Part shown: positions 18,107-62,577 of the stretch, piece by piece
How the letters are laid out: each line of letters starts with the position of its first letter
Numbering within the stretch: the first letter of the stretch is position 1
From: Gammaproteobacteria bacterium
Lineage (GTDB): Bacteria; Pseudomonadota; Gammaproteobacteria; Steroidobacterales; Steroidobacteraceae
Direction: 5' to 3'
NCBI GenBank assembly: GCA_025350055.1
Contig: JANXYK010000063.1
Coordinates: 1 to 64,000 of the forward strand
Length of the DNA: 64,000 nt
The notes under the pieces: generated by a model
Told to the model about the DNA's origin: nothing
The model's input: the letters and a program-made list of their open reading frames with translations, nothing else
The model's database searches: none
Translations under genes and position numbers: made by a program

Positions 18107-18916
18107 TCAGCCGTCGAGCTGCACGCACAGCATGCTGATCGAACCCAGGTCGATGCCATCGACGGGAATGCTCGCCACTTCGCCTTCGGCCTGGGCGCCC
18201 AGCACATACAGCAGCGGCAGGTAGTGCTCCGGTGTGGGCACGCTGAGGCGCGCGGCGCTGCCGGGCTTCTCGCCGGGTGCAGCCGCGCCGCCCAGGCGGT
18301 GAAAATCAATCAGTGATTCGTGATCGCCCGCGAGGATCGCGGCGCGTGCCTCATCGTTGAACTGACTCGCCCAGGGGTAGGCGGGCGCATGCTCGTTCCG
18401 CTGCATCACGCGCAGGTTGTGCACCACATCGCCACTTCCCAGCAGCAGTACACCCTCGGCGCGCAGCGCGCGCAGGCGGCGACCGAGCTCGTAGTGCTCG
18501 CGCGGCGGCAGTGTGGCGTCGATCGACAGCTGCACCACGGGGATATCCGCGGCTGGATACAGGTAACGCAGCACTACCCAACTGCCATGATCGAGGCCCC
18601 ACTCATGGTCGCCATGCACCATGGTCGGTGCCAATAGCGCCTGAACGCGGGCGGCCAGCGCGGGATCGCCTGGCGCCGGGTAGCGCAGCTGGTACATCGG
18701 CGCAGGGAATCCGTAGAAGTCGTGGATGGTTGCGGGCTTCTGCGCCTGCGTGACGGCCGTGCCCTGCGTGTACCAGTGGGCCGATACGCACAGGATGGCG
18801 CGCGGACGCGGCAGGCTCTGCCCCAACTGCTGCCACACCGCGCTGTAGCGCGTGGGCTCGATCGCCTGCAGTGGCGAGCCATGGCCGATGAAGAGTGCCG
18901 GGTGCAGGGTATTCAT
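18107..18916 (-). CDS. ygiD: DODA-type extradiol dioxygenase (LigB superfamily, YgiD-like)
   Basis: 269 aa. It has the LigB-fold metal ligands in ALFIGHGSP (residue about 12), CVSAHWYTQG, and later EWGLDHGSWVVLRYLYP, plus LLLGSGDVVHNLR. The best family match is the E. coli YgiD type, which opens the ring of 3,4-dihydroxyphenylalanine with a non-haem metal; the natural substrate here is unknown. Its ATG overlaps the stop of the sixA-like gene by four bases, so it is the probable last gene of the suf transcript. It is distinct from the true protocatechuate LigB at 53477. Confidence 0.85.
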   Translation of the reverse strand: MNTLHPALFIGHGSPLQAIEPTRYSAVWQQLGQSLPRPRAILCVSAHWYTQGTAVTQAQKPATIHDFYGFPAPMYQLRYPAPGDPALAARVQALLAPTMVHGDHEWGLDHGSWVVLRYLYPAADIPVVQLSIDATLPPREHYELGRRLRALRAEGVLLLGSGDVVHNLRVMQRNEHAPAYPWASQFNDEARAAILAGDHESLIDFHRLGGAAAPGEKPGSAARLSVPTPEHYLPLLYVLGAQAEGEVASIPVDGIDLGSISMLCVQLDG

Positions 18917-51593: not shown

Positions 51594-52469
51594 ATGATTC
51601 CCACCTGCAAGGCGCCCGATCCCGACACGCGTCGCCCTCGTTTCCAGCCGCCGCCGAACGCCTGCGATGCGCACTGCCATATCTTTGGACCCGGCGATCG
51701 CTATCCCTACGCGGCCGATCGCAGCTACACGCCGCCGGATGCGCCGCTGGCTCACTTGCAGGCGCTGCAACGCACGCTGGGGCTGTCGCGCGCGGTGCTG
51801 GTGAATGCCAGTTGCCACGGCGCCGACAACAGCGTGATCGTCGATGCGATTGCCGGCAGCGGAGGCCGCTATCGCGGTGTGGCCAATGTGGACGGCAGTT
51901 TCTCGGCCGACGACTACCGTCGACTACACGAGCAGGGTTTTCGCGGCGTGCGCTTCAACTTCGTGCGGCACTTGGGCGGCGTGCCCGATATGGACGAACT
52001 GCGTCGTGTGCTCGGGCACATCGAGCCGCTGGGCTGGCATGTGGACCTGCACTTCGATGCCCAGGATCTGCCGCAATACGACACGATGCTGAGCGCACTG
52101 CCGGTGCCATTCATCATCGATCACATGGGTCGCGTGCCCACCAGCCAGGGCCTGCAGCAGGCACCGTTCCAGGTGCTGCTGGCCCTGCACCGGCGTAACC
52201 GCAACTGCTGGGTGAAGATCAGCGGCGCGGAGCGCATCGCCAGCGAAGGGCCGCCCTTCACCAGCGCAGTGCCCTTTGCGCAGGCACTGGTCGAGGCCGG
52301 TGCGGACCGGATCCTGTGGGGCACCGACTGGCCGCATCCAAACATTGCCCGGCACATGCCCAATGACGGCGACCTGGTGGATCTGTTGCCCTTGATGTTG
52401 CCCGATGAGGCCACCCGGCGAATGGTGCTGGTGGATAATCCGCATCGTCTGTACCAGTTCAGGTCTTAA
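51594..52469 (+). CDS. ligI: 2-pyrone-4,6-dicarboxylate hydrolase LigI
   Basis: 291-aa amidohydrolase that opens 2-pyrone-4,6-dicarboxylate to 4-oxalomesaconate. CDAHCHIFGPGDRYPYA carries the metal-type histidines, and SYTPPDAPLAHLQALQRTLG, FIIDHMGRVP and RILWGTDWPHPN (catalytic aspartate) match LigI. Its neighbours ligC, ligA, ligB, ligJ, ligU and ligK are the other steps of protocatechuate 4,5-cleavage. Only nine bases separate it from cysNC, with no clear promoter between. Confidence 0.94.
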   Translation: MIPTCKAPDPDTRRPRFQPPPNACDAHCHIFGPGDRYPYAADRSYTPPDAPLAHLQALQRTLGLSRAVLVNASCHGADNSVIVDAIAGSGGRYRGVANVDGSFSADDYRRLHEQGFRGVRFNFVRHLGGVPDMDELRRVLGHIEPLGWHVDLHFDAQDLPQYDTMLSALPVPFIIDHMGRVPTSQGLQQAPFQVLLALHRRNRNCWVKISGAERIASEGPPFTSAVPFAQALVEAGADRILWGTDWPHPNIARHMPNDGDLVDLLPLMLPDEATRRMVLVDNPHRLYQFRS

Positions 52470-52483
52470 GGACACGAGCGCAC

Positions 52484-53431
52484 ATGAAGATCTGCATGGC
52501 AGGGCAAGGGGCTTTCGGCATCAAGCACCTCGAGGCGATCCGCCAGATTCCGGGCATCGAAGTGGTCAGCCTCGCGGGTGGCAGCGCCGACTCGACGCGC
52601 GAAGTGGCGGAGAAGTTTGCCATTGCGCACTGGTCCCTTGATCTGGCCGAGTGCCTCACGCAGCCGGGCGTCAGCGCCGTGATCCTGACCACGCCGACCC
52701 AGATGCATGCCCAGCAGGCGATCCAGTGCATGCGCGCCGGCAAGCACGTGATGATCGAGATCCCGATGGCCGACAGCCTGAAGGATTCCGAGGAGATCGT
52801 GCGGGTGCAGCGCGAGACCGGACTCATTGCGATGGCCGGCCATACGCGCCGCTTCAATCCCAGCCACCAGTGGGTGCACGCGCGCATCAAGGCCGGCGAG
52901 CTGAAGGTGCTGCAGATGGATGTGCAGACCTATTTCTTCCGCCGCACCAATACGAACGCGCTCGGCAAGCCCCGTAGCTGGACTGACCATCTGCTTTGGC
53001 ACCACGCCTGCCACACCGTCGACCTGTTCCAGTACCAGACCGGGCAGGTGGCCAGCAAAGTGCAGGCGCTGCAGGGTCCGATCCATCCGACACTCGGTAT
53101 TGCGATGGACATGAGCATCGGGCTCGCCGTGCCCTCGGGCGCGATCTGCACGCTGTCGCTGTCATTCAACAATGACGGGCCGCTGGGCACCTTCTTCCGC
53201 TACATCTGCGACCACGGCACCTACCTCTGCCGTTACGACGATCTGTTCGACGGCAAGAACAATCAAATCGATGTGTCGAAGGTGGCAGTGTCGATGAACG
53301 GCATCGAGCTGCAGGACCGGGAATTCTTTGCGGCGATTGCCGGGCAGCGCGAACCCAACGCCAGCGTTGCGCAGGCGCTCGAGGCCATGCGCACGCTCGA
53401 CCGCCTCGAGCAGTGCCTGAACAAAGCCTGA
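52484..53431 (+). CDS. ligC: 4-carboxy-2-hydroxymuconate-6-semialdehyde dehydrogenase LigC
   Basis: 315 aa. It oxidises the ring-cleavage product hemiacetal to 2-pyrone-4,6-dicarboxylate with NADP. The Gfo/Idh Rossmann motif is MKICMAGQGAFGIKHLEAI; IEIPMADSLKDSEEIV replaces the usual EKP, and GHTRRFNPSHQWVH and HLLWHHACHTVDLFQYQTG are LigC hallmarks. Fourteen bp after ligI on the same strand. Converges with ligB across a hairpin at 53459. Confidence 0.95.
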   Translation: MKICMAGQGAFGIKHLEAIRQIPGIEVVSLAGGSADSTREVAEKFAIAHWSLDLAECLTQPGVSAVILTTPTQMHAQQAIQCMRAGKHVMIEIPMADSLKDSEEIVRVQRETGLIAMAGHTRRFNPSHQWVHARIKAGELKVLQMDVQTYFFRRTNTNALGKPRSWTDHLLWHHACHTVDLFQYQTGQVASKVQALQGPIHPTLGIAMDMSIGLAVPSGAICTLSLSFNNDGPLGTFFRYICDHGTYLCRYDDLFDGKNNQIDVSKVAVSMNGIELQDREFFAAIAGQREPNASVAQALEAMRTLDRLEQCLNKA

Positions 53432-53458: not shown

Positions 53459-53477
53459 GCGGCCCGCCGTGGGCCGC
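53459..53477. terminator. Hairpin between convergent ligC and ligB
   Basis: GCGGCCC and GGGCCGC form a 7-bp perfect stem around GCCGT in the 45-bp gap between the ends of ligC and ligB. The last base is the ligB stop end. There is no T-run, so it may be a weak bidirectional terminator. Confidence 0.4.
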
Positions 53478-54334
53478 TACTGACGCAGCGGTTCGAGCAC
53501 CTGCACGGCCGAGGCCGTGTTCGAAATCGGTATGTGGTAGTTGCGGTACACCTGCCGGGCCGTGCCCGCCATCGCGCCGCGCGCCGCCATCCAGTTGAGG
53601 ATCTCTACGCCCTGCGTCCGGGCCAGCGACACCAGGTCGTGAACGCTGTAGTGCTGCAGGGCCTCCGGATCGGCAATCAGCGTATTCAGGCACTGCTGGT
53701 CGAATTCGCGGTTGATGAAACCGGCGCGTGCGCCATCGAGCTGGTGCGAGAGGCCACCCGTGCCCATCACCACCACCCGTGATTTCTCCGGCCATGCGGC
53801 CAGTGCGCGCCCCACGGAGCGCCCGAGTGCCAGGCAGCGCTTCATCGTCGGCAGCGGGTGCTGCACGGTATTGATGCAGATCGGCACCACCCGGATCGGA
53901 TAGACCATGCGTCCGGGGTACAGCAGTGCCAGCGGAATCGAGAAGGCGTGATCGACGTTCATCTCCTGGCAAGTCACCGGGTCGAACTCGTCTGCCACCA
54001 GCTGCTCGATGATGTGCCAAGACAGCTCAGGATGCCCCTGGAAGGCGCCCAGGCTCGGAATGCCCCAGCCCTCGTCGGTGTTCAGGTACTGCGGGGCCGC
54101 GCCGACCGCGAAGGTCAGCATCTTGTCGAGGAAGAACTTCAGGCCATGATCGTTATAAAACATAACGATCGTGTCGGGCGCGACCTTGTCCAGCCAGCTG
54201 CGCACCGGCGGGTAGCCGTCGAAGAAGGGTTTCCAGTAGGCGTCCTGCTGCAGGTTCTGGGCGATGGCCTTGCCGATCGCCGGTACGTGCGAGGTGCCGA
54301 TGAAGCCGACTATCTGTGCCGTGGTTGCGCTCAC
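53477..54334 (-). CDS. ligB: Protocatechuate 4,5-dioxygenase beta subunit LigB
   Basis: 285 aa from the GTG at 54334, overlapping the ligA stop (GTGA). The class III extradiol active site is clear: GFIGTSHVPAIGKAIA with the first iron histidine, MFYNDHGLKFFLDKM, and VVVMGTGGLSHQLDG. The enzyme needs LigA and Fe2+ and cleaves protocatechuate between C4 and C5. As given, the frameshifted ligA runs into this frame, which would make a 392-residue fused ORF; the GTG is the natural start. Confidence 0.94.
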   Translation of the reverse strand: MSATTAQIVGFIGTSHVPAIGKAIAQNLQQDAYWKPFFDGYPPVRSWLDKVAPDTIVMFYNDHGLKFFLDKMLTFAVGAAPQYLNTDEGWGIPSLGAFQGHPELSWHIIEQLVADEFDPVTCQEMNVDHAFSIPLALLYPGRMVYPIRVVPICINTVQHPLPTMKRCLALGRSVGRALAAWPEKSRVVVMGTGGLSHQLDGARAGFINREFDQQCLNTLIADPEALQHYSVHDLVSLARTQGVEILNWMAARGAMAGTARQVYRNYHIPISNTASAVQVLEPLRQ

Positions 54335-54655
54335 TTGCCCGCTCGCAGCAGTTTTGCCTTGAAGGCATCCAGGCTCATGCCGGTCTGTTGTGCGCCGACA
54401 TCCTGCACATTCAGGCCGAAAATGCCCGCCAGCTTGGCGAGGTAGTAGATGTTGCCGCCGGCGACGATCATCGCCAGCACGTTGCGCTTCGGTCAGTTGG
54501 TAGCGCCGGCAGTAGCCGGGCTCGTCGGCCAGGAACGCGGCGCGGTTCTCGGCGTTGTTGAACGAGTAGCACATGCGGTTGAGTGCATAGCCCTTCATGG
54601 CTTCGTGGCCATTGAACAGAGTGGTGCCGGGAATATCCTGGATGCTGGCGTTCAT
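54331..54655 (-). pseudogene. ligA: Protocatechuate 4,5-dioxygenase alpha subunit LigA, frameshifted
   Basis: The N-terminal part, IQDIPGTTLFNGHEAMKGYA to YQLTEAQ, is LigA-like from the ATG at 54655. The frame is then lost at 54477-54486; VLAMIVAGGNIYYLAKLAGI and the rest to AKLLRAGK continue in another frame to the TGA at 54331-54333. Two missing bases in a CGCG run (read as CG) would restore a 108-aa protein. LigA caps the LigB active site, so loss would impair the dioxygenase. A sequencing error is a real possibility because ligB and the whole pathway are intact. Confidence 0.85.
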
Positions 54656-54779: not shown

Positions 54780-55808
54780 ATGATCATCGATTGCCACGGA
54801 CATTACACGACCGCGCCCGCGGCGCTGCAGCTGTTCCGCGACGCGCAGCTGGCCGCCTTCAAGAGTGGCGGCGCAGGCAGCGCAGGCCCGATTGAGATCA
54901 GCGACGATCAGATCCGTGCCAGCCTTGAGAATGCGCAGCTCAAATTGCAGCGCGAACGGGGCACCGACCTGACGGTATTTTCGCCGCGTGCCTCGGCGAT
55001 GGGTCATCACCTGGGCGATGAGCGCATCAGCCAGGGCTGGACGCGCCAGTGCAACGATCTGATCGCGCGCGTGGTCGGCCTGTATCCCGACAATTTCATC
55101 GGCGTGTGCCAGTTGCCGCAGTCACCTGGCGTACCGGCGGCCAACAGCGCCGCTGAACTGGAACGCTGCGTGCGCGAGCTCGGCTTCGTGGGTTGCAACC
55201 TCAATCCCGACCCCTCGGGCGGCCACTGGACCAGCCCGCCGCTGACCGATCGTCACTGGTATCCGCTGTACGAGAAGCTGGTGGAATTCGACGTGCCGGC
55301 CATGGTGCATGTGAGTGCCAGCTGCAACGCGAACTTCCACGCCACCGGTGCCCATTACATCAATGCCGATACCACGGCCTTCATGCAGTTCATCACCAGC
55401 GACCTGTTCAAGGATTTTCCGACCCTGCGCATGATCATTCCGCATGGCGGCGGGGCGGTGCCCTATCATTACGGGCGCTATCGCGGGCTGGCGCAGGACC
55501 TGAAGCGCCCGCCGCTGCAGGAGTCGGTGCTGCGCAACGTCTATTTCGACACCTGCGTGTATCACCAGGCCGGCATCGACCTGCTGGCGCGGGTGATTCC
55601 GATCGAGAACATCCTGTTCGGCTCCGAGATGGTCGGCGCGGTGCGCGGCATCGATCCGACCACCGGGCACTACTACGATGACACCCGGCGCTACGTCGAT
55701 GCGCTGGCGATCAGTGACGCCGATCGTCAACGGATCTACAGCGGCAATGCGCGTCGCGTGTTTCCGCGGCTGGATGCGCGGCTGAAATCGCGCGGTGTGA
55801 CGCCGTGA
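54780..55808 (+). CDS. ligJ: 4-oxalomesaconate hydratase LigJ
   Basis: 342-aa amidohydrolase-superfamily hydratase that adds water to the oxalomesaconate to give 4-carboxy-4-hydroxy-2-oxoadipate. MIIDCHGHYTTAPAAL at the start, FSPRASAMGHHLGD, GCNLNPDPSGGHWTSPPLTD and MIIPHGGGAVPYHYGRYRG with the metal histidine match LigJ. It is divergent from ligA. Its TGA overlaps the copper-chaperone start by four bases (GTGA). Confidence 0.95.
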   Translation: MIIDCHGHYTTAPAALQLFRDAQLAAFKSGGAGSAGPIEISDDQIRASLENAQLKLQRERGTDLTVFSPRASAMGHHLGDERISQGWTRQCNDLIARVVGLYPDNFIGVCQLPQSPGVPAANSAAELERCVRELGFVGCNLNPDPSGGHWTSPPLTDRHWYPLYEKLVEFDVPAMVHVSASCNANFHATGAHYINADTTAFMQFITSDLFKDFPTLRMIIPHGGGAVPYHYGRYRGLAQDLKRPPLQESVLRNVYFDTCVYHQAGIDLLARVIPIENILFGSEMVGAVRGIDPTTGHYYDDTRRYVDALAISDADRQRIYSGNARRVFPRLDARLKSRGVTP

Positions 55809-56290
55809 GCGCCGTGAGCGCGGTGCGCGCGGTGCTGCTGGCGATGATAGCAGCGCTGACCACGCTCGCGGCGCTACCGGCAGCCGCTGGGGCAACCGCT
55901 GACCTGCGCGTGCTGGCGGCGCACGCGCCGGCCACGCCAGCAGCGGCCACCACTGCCGCGGCTTACATCACCGTGCACAATGTCGGCGCCACCAGCGATC
56001 AGTTGTTGCGGGTCACTACGCCGGTCGCTGCAGAAGTGCAATTGCATCGCTCGCAGCTCGATGGCGCGGTTGTGCGGATGCGTCCCGTGGCCTCGCTCGA
56101 GGTGCCGATCGGTGGCAGCATCGAAATGAGCGCAGGCGGTACCCACCTGATGTTGATCGGGCTGAAACGGCCGCTGAAGGCGGGCGAGCAGTTTCCACTG
56201 CGCCTGGAGTTTGCACGCGCAGGCGTGCTCGAGGCCGCGGTGAAGGTGCTGCCCGCGGGCGGCGCGCAGCGGGGAGCAACGCAGCCCTAG
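55805..56290 (+). CDS. PCu(A)C-family periplasmic copper chaperone
   Basis: 161 aa from GTG 55805. A signal peptide ends near AAGATA. The copper-binding motif H-X10-M-X21-H-X-M is exact: His in VQLHRSQL, Met in VVRMRPV, and GTHLM at the end of the spacing. Such proteins carry Cu(I) to cytochrome oxidase. It is tightly coupled to ligJ and overlaps the convergent ligU end by four bases. A copper chaperone has no known role in the Fe-dependent ring cleavage here. Confidence 0.9.
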   Translation: MSAVSAVRAVLLAMIAALTTLAALPAAAGATADLRVLAAHAPATPAAATTAAAYITVHNVGATSDQLLRVTTPVAAEVQLHRSQLDGAVVRMRPVASLEVPIGGSIEMSAGGTHLMLIGLKRPLKAGEQFPLRLEFARAGVLEAAVKVLPAGGAQRGATQP

Positions 56291-57396
56291 ATGCCGGGGC
56301 CTTGCCAGAGCGCGGACGGCACCATCACGTTGCCTTCCATCAATACGCGCGCGGTGCGCAGTATTCCCGAGCGGCCGACCCGAAAATCCGCAGCGCTGCT
56401 GCCTGAAACATCGAGCGTGACCGTGAATTCGCCGCTCGGGTGTTCCACCGAGAGCACCAGCGGCGAGCCTGATGGCACTCGCGCAATGCCGGCGGTGACC
56501 GAGCCGGGCAGAGCGCAGGCGGTGGCCACGCTCACTGCCCCCAGCACGCCGATTGCGGCATGGCAGCGATGCGGAATGAAGGTGCGCGTGCACACGTCGC
56601 CGCCGTCGCGCGGCGCGGCAATCAGCGTCATCTTCGGCACCACGCGCGCACTGACATCGCCCAGGCCCATCAGCACACCGGCTTCCAGGCGCAGCGCCTC
56701 GAGCCGCGTCTTGAACGCGCGATCCGCATCGAGTTCCGCTGGGCTCTCGTAACCGGTCTTGCCCATGGAAGCAGCCGGAATCACCACCACCGGCATGCCG
56801 TTGTCGATGCAGGTGACTTCGATGCCGGTGGCAACATCGTGTGCCCGGCCGGTGGGCAGCAGGCCCTTGCATACGGAGCCGGCAGTGTCGAGAAAGTCGA
56901 TCGCGATCGGCGCCGCCGTACCTGGCACACCGGCTATCGCCGTTGCTCCGTCGTAACGCACCTGACCGCCCGGCGTCTGTATCTGCGCGACGGCAAGGTT
57001 GCCGGTGTTCACCATGTGTATGGATACGGGCGTCAACGGATCGCGCGCCCTCACCAGTCCACGCTCGATCGCAAAGGGACCGACCGCCGCCAGCATGTTG
57101 CCGCAATTCGGGCTCACATCGACCTGCGGCTTGTCGATCAGTACCTGGGCGAACAGGTAGTCAATGTGGGTGCCAGACCTGGTCGAGGGGCTGACGATCG
57201 CGACCTTGCTGGTCAGAGGTTCGGCGCCGCCCACGCCATCGATCTGCCGTGGATCAGGCGAGCCCATGATCGCCAGCAGCACGCGATCGCGCAGCGCGGT
57301 GTCGGATGGCAGATCGCTGGCCAGCAGCAGCGCGCCCTTGGAGGTGCCGCCGCGCATCAGCATGCAGGGCACAGGCGTCTGGCGCATGGCGCTCAC
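56287..57396 (-). CDS. ligU: 4-oxalomesaconate tautomerase LigU (PrpF family)
   Basis: 369 aa. Isomerises the keto form of 4-oxalomesaconate to the substrate of LigJ. The PrpF/LigU fold shows MLMRGGTSKGALLLASDLP at the start, SPNCGNMLAAVGPFAIERG near residue 95 and HRCHAAIGVLGAVSVATACA near 277, and the enzyme has the AcnD-accessory PrpF layout. Its location between lig genes favours LigU/GalD over PrpF. Thirteen bp after ligK on the same strand, so ligK-ligU is one unit. Confidence 0.92.
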   Translation of the reverse strand: MSAMRQTPVPCMLMRGGTSKGALLLASDLPSDTALRDRVLLAIMGSPDPRQIDGVGGAEPLTSKVAIVSPSTRSGTHIDYLFAQVLIDKPQVDVSPNCGNMLAAVGPFAIERGLVRARDPLTPVSIHMVNTGNLAVAQIQTPGGQVRYDGATAIAGVPGTAAPIAIDFLDTAGSVCKGLLPTGRAHDVATGIEVTCIDNGMPVVVIPAASMGKTGYESPAELDADRAFKTRLEALRLEAGVLMGLGDVSARVVPKMTLIAAPRDGGDVCTRTFIPHRCHAAIGVLGAVSVATACALPGSVTAGIARVPSGSPLVLSVEHPSGEFTVTLDVSGSSAADFRVGRSGILRTARVLMEGNVMVPSALWQGPGI

Positions 57397-57409: not shown

Positions 57410-58075
57410 TCACAGGTACTTCAGCCCCAGCGCCGCCAGCTTCTCGCGCATCTTGTAGAGATCGAGCCCGAGTTCCCCCGCTGCGAGCCGGCGCCGGTTG
57501 TCTTCCTCGTTGGCAATGCGCGCCTCGGATGCGTGCGCAACCGTCGCGGCCTGCGAGCGCGGAACCACGACCACGCCGTCATCATCGGCGACGATCACAT
57601 CGCCGGCTTCGACACGCTGCGCGGCGCAGATCAGGGGAACGTTCACCGCACCCAGGCTGGCCTTGATCGTGCCCTGGGCGCAGATGCATTTGCTCCACAC
57701 CGGAAACCGCATCTGGGTCAGCGTCGCCACATCGCGCACGCCGGCGTCGATCACCAGTGCGCGTACGCCGCGTGCCTTGAGCGAGGTGCCCAGCAGGTCG
57801 CCGAAGTAACCATCGCTGCAGGGTGAGCTGGGCGCCACCACCAGGATATCTCCGGGCCGGCATTGCTCCGCGGCGACATGGATCATCCAGTTGTCGCCCG
57901 GCGTCACGAGTGCCGTTACTGCCGAACCCGCGACGCTGGCGCCGGCATAGATCGGCCGCAGGTAGTGCGCGAGCAGCCCGGTACGGCCCTGGGATTCATG
58001 CACGCTGGCCACGCCGCAGCGCGCCAGCCGGTCGATCACCGCGCCATCGGCGCGCGCGATGTTCTGGATCACCAC
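57410..58075 (-). CDS. ligK: 4-carboxy-4-hydroxy-2-oxoadipate aldolase LigK
   Basis: 221 aa from the GTG at 58075. Class II, RraA-like aldolase that splits the last pathway intermediate into pyruvate and oxaloacetate and can decarboxylate oxaloacetate. [21 protein letters not shown] near residue 25, [19 protein letters not shown] near 95, VIDAGVRDV near 119 and [11 protein letters not shown] near 140 match the family. The start is uncertain: the frame is open to an ATG at 58177, and GGAGA lies before an ATC at about 58108. The family starts near this GTG. Confidence 0.92.
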
Positions 58076-58191
58076 GTGGCGTTCAATGGGGGCGTTGCCG
58101 GGGCTGTTGATGGCGGCTCTCCGTCCGGGAGTACAAATTGCACGCCGAAGTCTAGATACTGTCGGTCCTGCTGTCACCCCGAGGTCGGCTC

Positions 58192-60674: not shown

Positions 60675-62577
60675 TTAGTGACCATCAAGCGATAGCGCCA
60701 GCAGTGCGTTGCCCGGTTGACCGACCAGGCGACCGTATCCCGAATTGAGCAGCAGCATGCCCTCGGCCAGCACCGCGCCGCCGAGGTCCAGCGATCCGCC
60801 GCGCGCGGGCACACCATTGACGGTGCGGTAGCTGCGGCCGGTATCCAGATCCCAGCGCAGTTCGCCGCGCTCGCTGTCGTAGGCGCGCAGATGGCCGTCG
60901 AGCGAACCGGCGAACACGATGCCCGGCATGCTGCTGGCGGCCTGCACGTAGGCATTCAGGCAAGGTTTTGCCTTCCAGTGGCAGCGCTCGACCGGTGCCG
61001 TCACTTGCCAGCGCAGCCTGCCGGTAGCGAGGTCGAGCGCGGCCAAGCCAGCGTGTGCGGCTGCGGGCGGAGCGAGAGCATCGGAAATCGGCGCATACAC
61101 TTGGGTTTCATCCGCTGCCGAACCCCACTCGATGCCACCCAACGGACCGCCGGCGCCAAGTCGCGTCTGCCACACGATCGCCCCTGCCTGCGCCGTATCG
61201 AGGGCATACACCACGCCGGATTTCTGGCTGGCGATCAGCAGGCGTCGACCATCGGGCAGATCGCGCAGGATCGCCGAGGCGCCAAAATCGAGATCGGCTC
61301 CTGGAGAGGCCGGGCAGTTGGCACTCCCGCCCAGATCACAGCTCGCCGCAGTGGCGCCAGCGGGGCAGGCCAGTGGCCGCGCGCAGCTCAGGTTGAAGTT
61401 GTCAGCGGGCGTTAGCTGGCGCGACCACAGCAGTGCGCCCGTATCCATGCGCAGCGCCAACACTGCATCGGTAGTGGCGGCAGGCTCGGCGGTATAGGAG
61501 TTGCCGGTGCCGACATAGATGATGCCGCGCTCGGTATCGAGTGTCGGCGAATTTCAGATGGCCGCGCCCGCCGGGCCGTGCAGCTGCGTACCTGCATCGC
61601 TGAGGCGCAGCGGCTCTGGTGCGCTCAGGGTCTTTGCGACCCAGATTGGCACGCCGGTGCGCACATCGAGCGCCTGCAGGCTGCCCACGAAAGTGCAGCA
61701 GGGGTAATGGCTGTCGGCAGCGACGATCTCCTCGAACGAAGATACCGGCACATAGACCACGTCGCCGTGCAATTTGAGCGCGCCGGTGATGCGCGCCTGA
61801 GCGGGAGCATCGACCCGTCGCTTCCACAGCAGCTGGCCATCGGCGGCCTGTAAGGCATACACATTGCCGGCATCATCGCCAAAGTAAAGCGCTGTCAGAC
61901 CGCCGACATTGCCAATAGCGATAGCACTGCGCACGGCGGTCTCGGCGCTGTAACTCCAGTGCACGCAACCGGTAGCCAGATCGAGCGAATGCACCCGTCC
62001 ACTGGAACTCGTGACATACACGCGCCCCGCCACGATCACGGGCTGGCCGTACACATAGGAGCCGCGATAGCCGAAGGCCCACTTGAGGCGCAGACGCGGC
62101 AGATCGGCGGCCCTGAATCCAGGGTTCGGCGCGTAACGTGTGTTGCTGTGATCGCGTCCCCAGCCGTTCCAGTCATCGCTGGCGGGCGCCAGCAGGGTAT
62201 GCATGCGATTGGCATCGCGCGCTGAACGGGGCTCGCGCGCGCAGCGATTGGGCTCGTCGACGGCCGCGGTGCGCTCGACCGGCATGCGCCCGGTTGAGAA
62301 ACCAGGCGATACCCTGCATCTGGAACACGCGCAGGCCGCTGGCCTGCGCGTGCATCGTGCCGCTGTGCATGGCCTGCACCAGTTGTTCGGGCGAGCGCTG
62401 GCGCAGCGCGCCGATACCGGGAATACGGCCAGCGGGTCTGGCATGGCAGGAGAGGCAACGCTGCGCGAAATTCAGTTCGCCACCCGAGATGTCATCGCGA
62501 TCGGCGGCCGCCAGCACGCGGCCGCCGGGCAGCAGGCACAGCAGCAGGGTCAGAGGTAGCGCGGCGGCACTGCTCAT
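60675..62577 (-). pseudogene. PQQ-propeller dehydrogenase with N-terminal cytochrome c, disrupted
   Basis: Three pieces make one gene. From ATG 62577: signal peptide, then a cytochrome c domain with RCLSCHARPAGRIPG. An extra base at about 62294 (reading CTCAACC where CTCACC keeps frame) shifts to the piece with DDWNGWGRDHSNTRYAP and propeller repeats (VYVTSSSGRVHSLDLATG). A TGA at 61554-61556 replaces a tryptophan codon in AAI*NSPTLDTERGIIYVGTGN, and the same frame continues to 60675. Layout matches polyvinyl-alcohol dehydrogenase-like quinoproteins. Two separate lesions suggest decay, or sequence error. Confidence 0.85.

Follow-up and report, generated by a model that had tools for sequence, protein, structure and literature searches.

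A frame break in the ligA gene of a Steroidobacteraceae lig cluster: a probable short-repeat deletion of about 23 bases

Background

The lig cluster studied here lies in a stretch of 64,000 nucleotides of a draft gammaproteobacterial genome, hereafter the window, and its ligA gene, which would encode the alpha (small) subunit of a LigAB-type protocatechuate 4,5-dioxygenase, an enzyme that opens a lignin-derived ring, is split over two reading frames. How much of the gene is missing, by which event it was lost, and what is left of the enzyme are the questions that this locus raises. We address them by comparison with homologous genes, with a structural model and with the remainder of the genome; a broken ligA is not a topic in the accessible part of PMC12455638.

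Homologues, model and coding scan

The homologues are the LigA stretches contained in fetched loci, which were drawn from the window's own genome, from its relatives and from a species-wide genome collection; many search hits without a locus were left unaligned. From 108 phmmer rows, eight rows of the broken gene itself (window, L002, L003 and L033) and 10 exact duplicates were removed, and two of the remaining 90 (L042 and L032) were set aside since their left flank is uncovered. The 88 rows thus retained comprise a near branch of 52 sequences (>55% identity) and 36 more distant ones. The structural model is the AlphaFold2 model of one intact homologue, L092. Coding signals were followed along 242,895 bases of the own genome with a home-made scan whose sensitivity is uncalibrated.

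The ligA frame break

LigA homology, read on the minus strand, begins at the ATG at 54655, reaches E-A-Q(-R) in a first frame and continues as (R-N-)V-L-A-M-I in another. The right piece, which reads RNVLAMIVAGGNIYYL... up to the TGA at 54318-54316, is therefore in a frame other than that of the left piece. The features concerned are the following:

54480..54655, minus strand: left piece of ligA, 59 residues (M...TEAQR), protocatechuate 4,5-dioxygenase alpha-subunit family by partial matches to PF07746 and NF009918/PRK13378 and by homologue alignment
54316..54486, minus strand: right piece of ligA, RNVLAMIVAGG... to TGA 54318-54316, PF07746 profile positions 40-86, 62.4 bits
54480..54486, minus strand: deletion junction CGCAACG, putative remaining copy of a direct repeat of 7 bases, the homologues being about 23 nt longer here

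Positions 1-38 and 40-86 of the 87 in the PF07746 LigA profile are matched above cut-off, in two frames, and a single continuous LigA frame is absent, the break lying at 54480-54486. Independently of homology, the coding-signal scan places the frame switch at 54484; together with the two-frame match, this establishes that the break is real in the given sequence. A first-pass annotation had called a ligA frameshift at 54477-54486 and a normal GTGA overlap between the ligA stop and ligB, and both are borne out, since the junction falls inside that interval and the TGA at 54318-54316 overlaps the GTG at 54319-54317. The best family scores were obtained with PRK13378 for the left LigA piece and with PRK13364 for LigB, and the TIGR02792 score of the broken piece is below cut-off. 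This ligA is a broken gene and not a working member of the LigA family.

Size of the lesion

In all the 88 homologues covering the site, the distance from the Q of "EAQ" to the V of "VLAM" is exactly eight residues, which in the near branch (n=52) are mostly R/K-E/A-A-I/V-R-x-R-N/D. In the window, one base remains between the corresponding CAA and GTG codons, a spacing as short as this being found in 0/88 homologues, so that about 23 bases are missing (seven codons plus two bases, 23 nt). The frame had been described as exactly restorable by two bases, and a deletion or sequencing error of this size was accordingly the initial proposal. Adding two bases does open a LigA frame, but with one codon where every homologue has eight; the repaired protein would be seven residues short, within and just after a predicted helix, and we reject a two-base loss on the basis of this spacing, as it can hardly be right. 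The earlier observation is correct in place and wrong in size. More generally, the apparent repair of a frame by two bases can hide a larger deletion, which comparison with homologues reveals.

Age of the lesion and state of the cluster

The 52 near homologues share 47 columns of at least 90% conservation beyond the gap, and the window LigA retains 46 of them, which indicates little or no decay since the break and makes the event look recent. An old, decayed pseudogene was considered and rejected on the same count, the conserved columns remaining in the two halves. The annotation's option of a very recent mutation fits these data: there is a single lesion and the rest of ligA is conserved. Compared with the near branch, the window LigA has a median identity of 0.73 in the right half (26 of the 52 others are lower) and of 0.62 in the left half (10/52 lower); the latter value, being on the low side, might reflect a slight relaxation of the left half.

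The other lig genes were also said to be intact, and this holds for those examined in the window, which are open and family-matched over most of their length:

51594..52469, plus strand: amidohydrolase-2, likely ligI (name inferred), PF04909 215.9 bits, NF042924 277.9 bits (under its cut-off of 500)
52484..53431, plus strand: GFO/IDH/MocA oxidoreductase, likely ligC (name inferred), PF19858 305.8 bits and PF01408 76.1 bits, all NCBIfam matches under their cut-offs
53477..54319, minus strand: ligB, catalytic beta subunit, 280 aa, intact, GTG start overlapping the ligA stop, PF02900 186.1 bits, NF009901 470 bits (cut-off 290)
54780..55808, plus strand: amidohydrolase-2, likely ligJ (name inferred), PF04909 189.9 bits, no NCBIfam match
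56287..57396, minus strand: 4-oxalomesaconate tautomerase (ligU), NF033377 532 bits (cut-off 440)
57410..58177, minus strand: 4-carboxy-4-hydroxy-2-oxoadipate aldolase (ligK), TIGR02798 356.8 bits (cut-off 304.5)

The LigB matches to PF02900 and NF009901 are nearly full-length and above cut-off. Aligned to 1b4u_B, the window LigB keeps the H, H, H and E of the motifs SSH, YNDH, GTGGMSHQL and GVEL, which we take to be the metal ligands and the catalytic histidine.

Junction repeat and proposed mechanism

Read in the left frame, the junction CGCAACG (54486-54480, minus strand) gives (A)-Q-R; read in the right one, it gives R-N plus the first base of V. Given eight codons between the flanks, the two possible placements of this heptamer start 23 bases apart, which is the missing length. 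The double reading is no general property of the family, since L090 is the only one of the 88 homologues whose left flank gives R-N when read in the right-hand frame. The exact heptamer is found at the expected right place in 18/88 homologues and at the expected left place in one (L090 again), and in 4/88 the sequences at the two places differ by a single base. The longest exact repeat at 23-base spacing measures six bases in one homologue, five in two and at most four in the other 85; the LigA family as a whole is thus not deletion-prone at this site. We infer the second CGCAACG copy and the size of the deletion from the homologues, and for the window's lineage only.

The sequence of events would then be the following. 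Two CGCAACG copies would once have stood 23 bases apart, (i) one in the A-Q-R codons and (ii) the other in the R-N-V codons. The copies most likely mispaired by slippage or underwent some other event independent of RecA, which would have kept one copy and removed the other with the intervening bases. In the accessible part of PMC4158980, direct-repeat deletions ranging from 9 to 228 bp are described as common in adapted E. coli mutants, together with three deletions without repeats in the same mutants. The loss of about 23 bases in ligA falls inside this 9-228 bp range (PMC4158980, same part), and the ligA lesion resembles slipped-strand deletions of bacteria in its putative short junction repeat, in the loss of tens of bases and in the presumed retention of one copy. 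It differs from them in that the second copy is reconstructed and the parent sequence absent. No undeleted ligA parent, and no sister strain carrying one, was found in a set of 217 family genomes that includes the own one, where the nearest DNA is 71% identical. A scan of genome contigs with LigB confirmed 36 relatives, with 56-66% identity in the best segment; its list may omit records very near the window's genome.

We therefore estimate at roughly 0.8 the probability that ligA carries a recent and ordinary loss-of-function deletion of about 23 bases between short repeats, perhaps tolerated through a paralogue.

Assembly or amplification artefact

The main competing explanation is that ligA is intact in the population and that the contig records an artefact of assembly, amplification or consensus building, through a chimeric path or template switching between repeats. 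The draft genome comprises 76 contigs, and two other candidate frame breaks were detected in the 242,895 bases scanned. Base-calling errors, however, do not usually remove 23 bases, and the overlap that assemblers normally need is far longer than a shared stretch of seven. Moreover, a yield of three candidate breaks from 82 same-strand switches over 242,895 bases, although obtained with an uncalibrated scan, argue against an indel-rich assembly. Of the sequence error that the first-pass annotation had offered as an option, the usual one- or two-base kind thus does not fit the size of the loss, and an assembly or amplification artefact, or a mixture of strains, is unlikely while keeping an appreciable minority of the probability.

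One of the other candidate breaks lies in the window itself, at about 62292-62350 on the minus strand, in a gene for a PQQ/beta-propeller protein (61554-62444); a cytochrome-c-like N-terminal part, in which C-x-x-C-H is recognisable by eye, is found just upstream in another frame.

Consequences for the enzyme

The LigAB protocatechuate 4,5-dioxygenase of known structure (1b4u/1bou) belongs to the same two families; the window LigB matches residues 4-277 of 1b4u_B, and the intact homologue L071 aligns to 1b4u_A without a gap. The window alpha subunit differs in being broken at the place of 1b4u_A residues 71-78, to which the missing residues align (hand count from the alignment). In the L092 model (mean pLDDT 87.7), these are residues 59-66 and comprise the greater part of helix 56-64 together with the turn that leads to the next helix. 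The ligA start is no longer in frame with anything 3' of the break, the counterpart of F103 in 1b4u_A (hand count) included. For the Sphingobium enzyme, the accessible text of PMC10094722 places the active site at the alpha-beta interface and reports F103A and F103S as inactive. The ligAB copy of the window probably cannot form a normal alpha-beta enzyme.

The shift also creates an open frame that continues into ligB:

53477..54655, minus strand: fused LigA'-LigB open frame, 392 aa, made by the deletion (open-frame reading)

It consists of 59 LigA residues, 53 out-of-frame residues and the 280 residues of LigB, with no stop before ligB, and ribosomes starting at the ligA start would make this chain and no normal alpha subunit.

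An intact paralogous pair of LigA and LigB, both above family cut-offs, is present on another contig of the own genome (C13, 89136-90261). It belongs to the same families as the window ligAB and differs from it in falling in another branch: its LigA scores 184.3 with TIGR02792 (cut-off 108.6) and its LigB 489.7 with PRK13366 (cut-off 317). The C13 pair could supply the downstream genes of the window cluster, which are intact, and the cell may tolerate the loss of ligA thanks to it. The suggested meaning is that this organism has only just lost one of its two copies of ligAB.

Two functional readings of the fused frame were weighed against the short-repeat deletion as a simple loss of function. 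It is very unlikely that the frame works through a long-tailed or internally started LigB which would borrow the C13 alpha subunit, giving a hybrid dioxygenase with a changed substrate range. We likewise regard as very improbable that the fusion has been selected, either as a single-chain enzyme of 392 aa or for the pairing of LigB with the C13 alpha subunit. The frame is open throughout, LigB is intact, and single-chain relatives with two domains do exist (NF009912 alpha/beta, the gallate dioxygenase NF009904, and 3wku), but the LigA part is truncated and is followed by 53 out-of-frame residues. In addition, in 37/88 homologues an identical shift would keep the frame open for more than 150 nt beyond the ligA stop, so that a fused frame of this kind is unremarkable and often expected by chance; selection for the fusion is accordingly a weak explanation.

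Finally, a programmed +1 frameshift joining the two LigA frames, the remaining option of the annotation, is scarcely credible. Skipping one base after CAA would indeed link the frames, but the product would be without the eight residues found in 88/88 homologues, which are themselves single-frame at the site, and, as the lost residues make up the greater part of a predicted helix, a normal LigA is not regained by any ribosomal shift. The RNA at 54380-54540 does not fold more strongly than shuffled sequences (z -1.15; 32 of 200 shuffles fold as well), and neither an in-frame stop nor a known shift signal was seen by eye at the junction. The spacing in the homologues, the ordinary fold and the lost helix led us to reject this option.

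Other LigB-family matches

Three further LigB-family matches were observed in the own genome. On C13 (47668-48416), a PF02900 gene is split over two frames, with the first 38 profile positions unmatched, and looks like a decaying pseudogene. At 58248-59066 of contig C5, a LigB-family dioxygenase occupies one open frame (266.9 bits, profile positions 2-268 of 269), and its neighbours, judged by eye, resemble genes of a ring-cleavage pathway. In the window itself, at 18302-18829 on the minus strand, a weaker match (89.4 bits, profile positions 37-218) lies in a frame of 292 aa.
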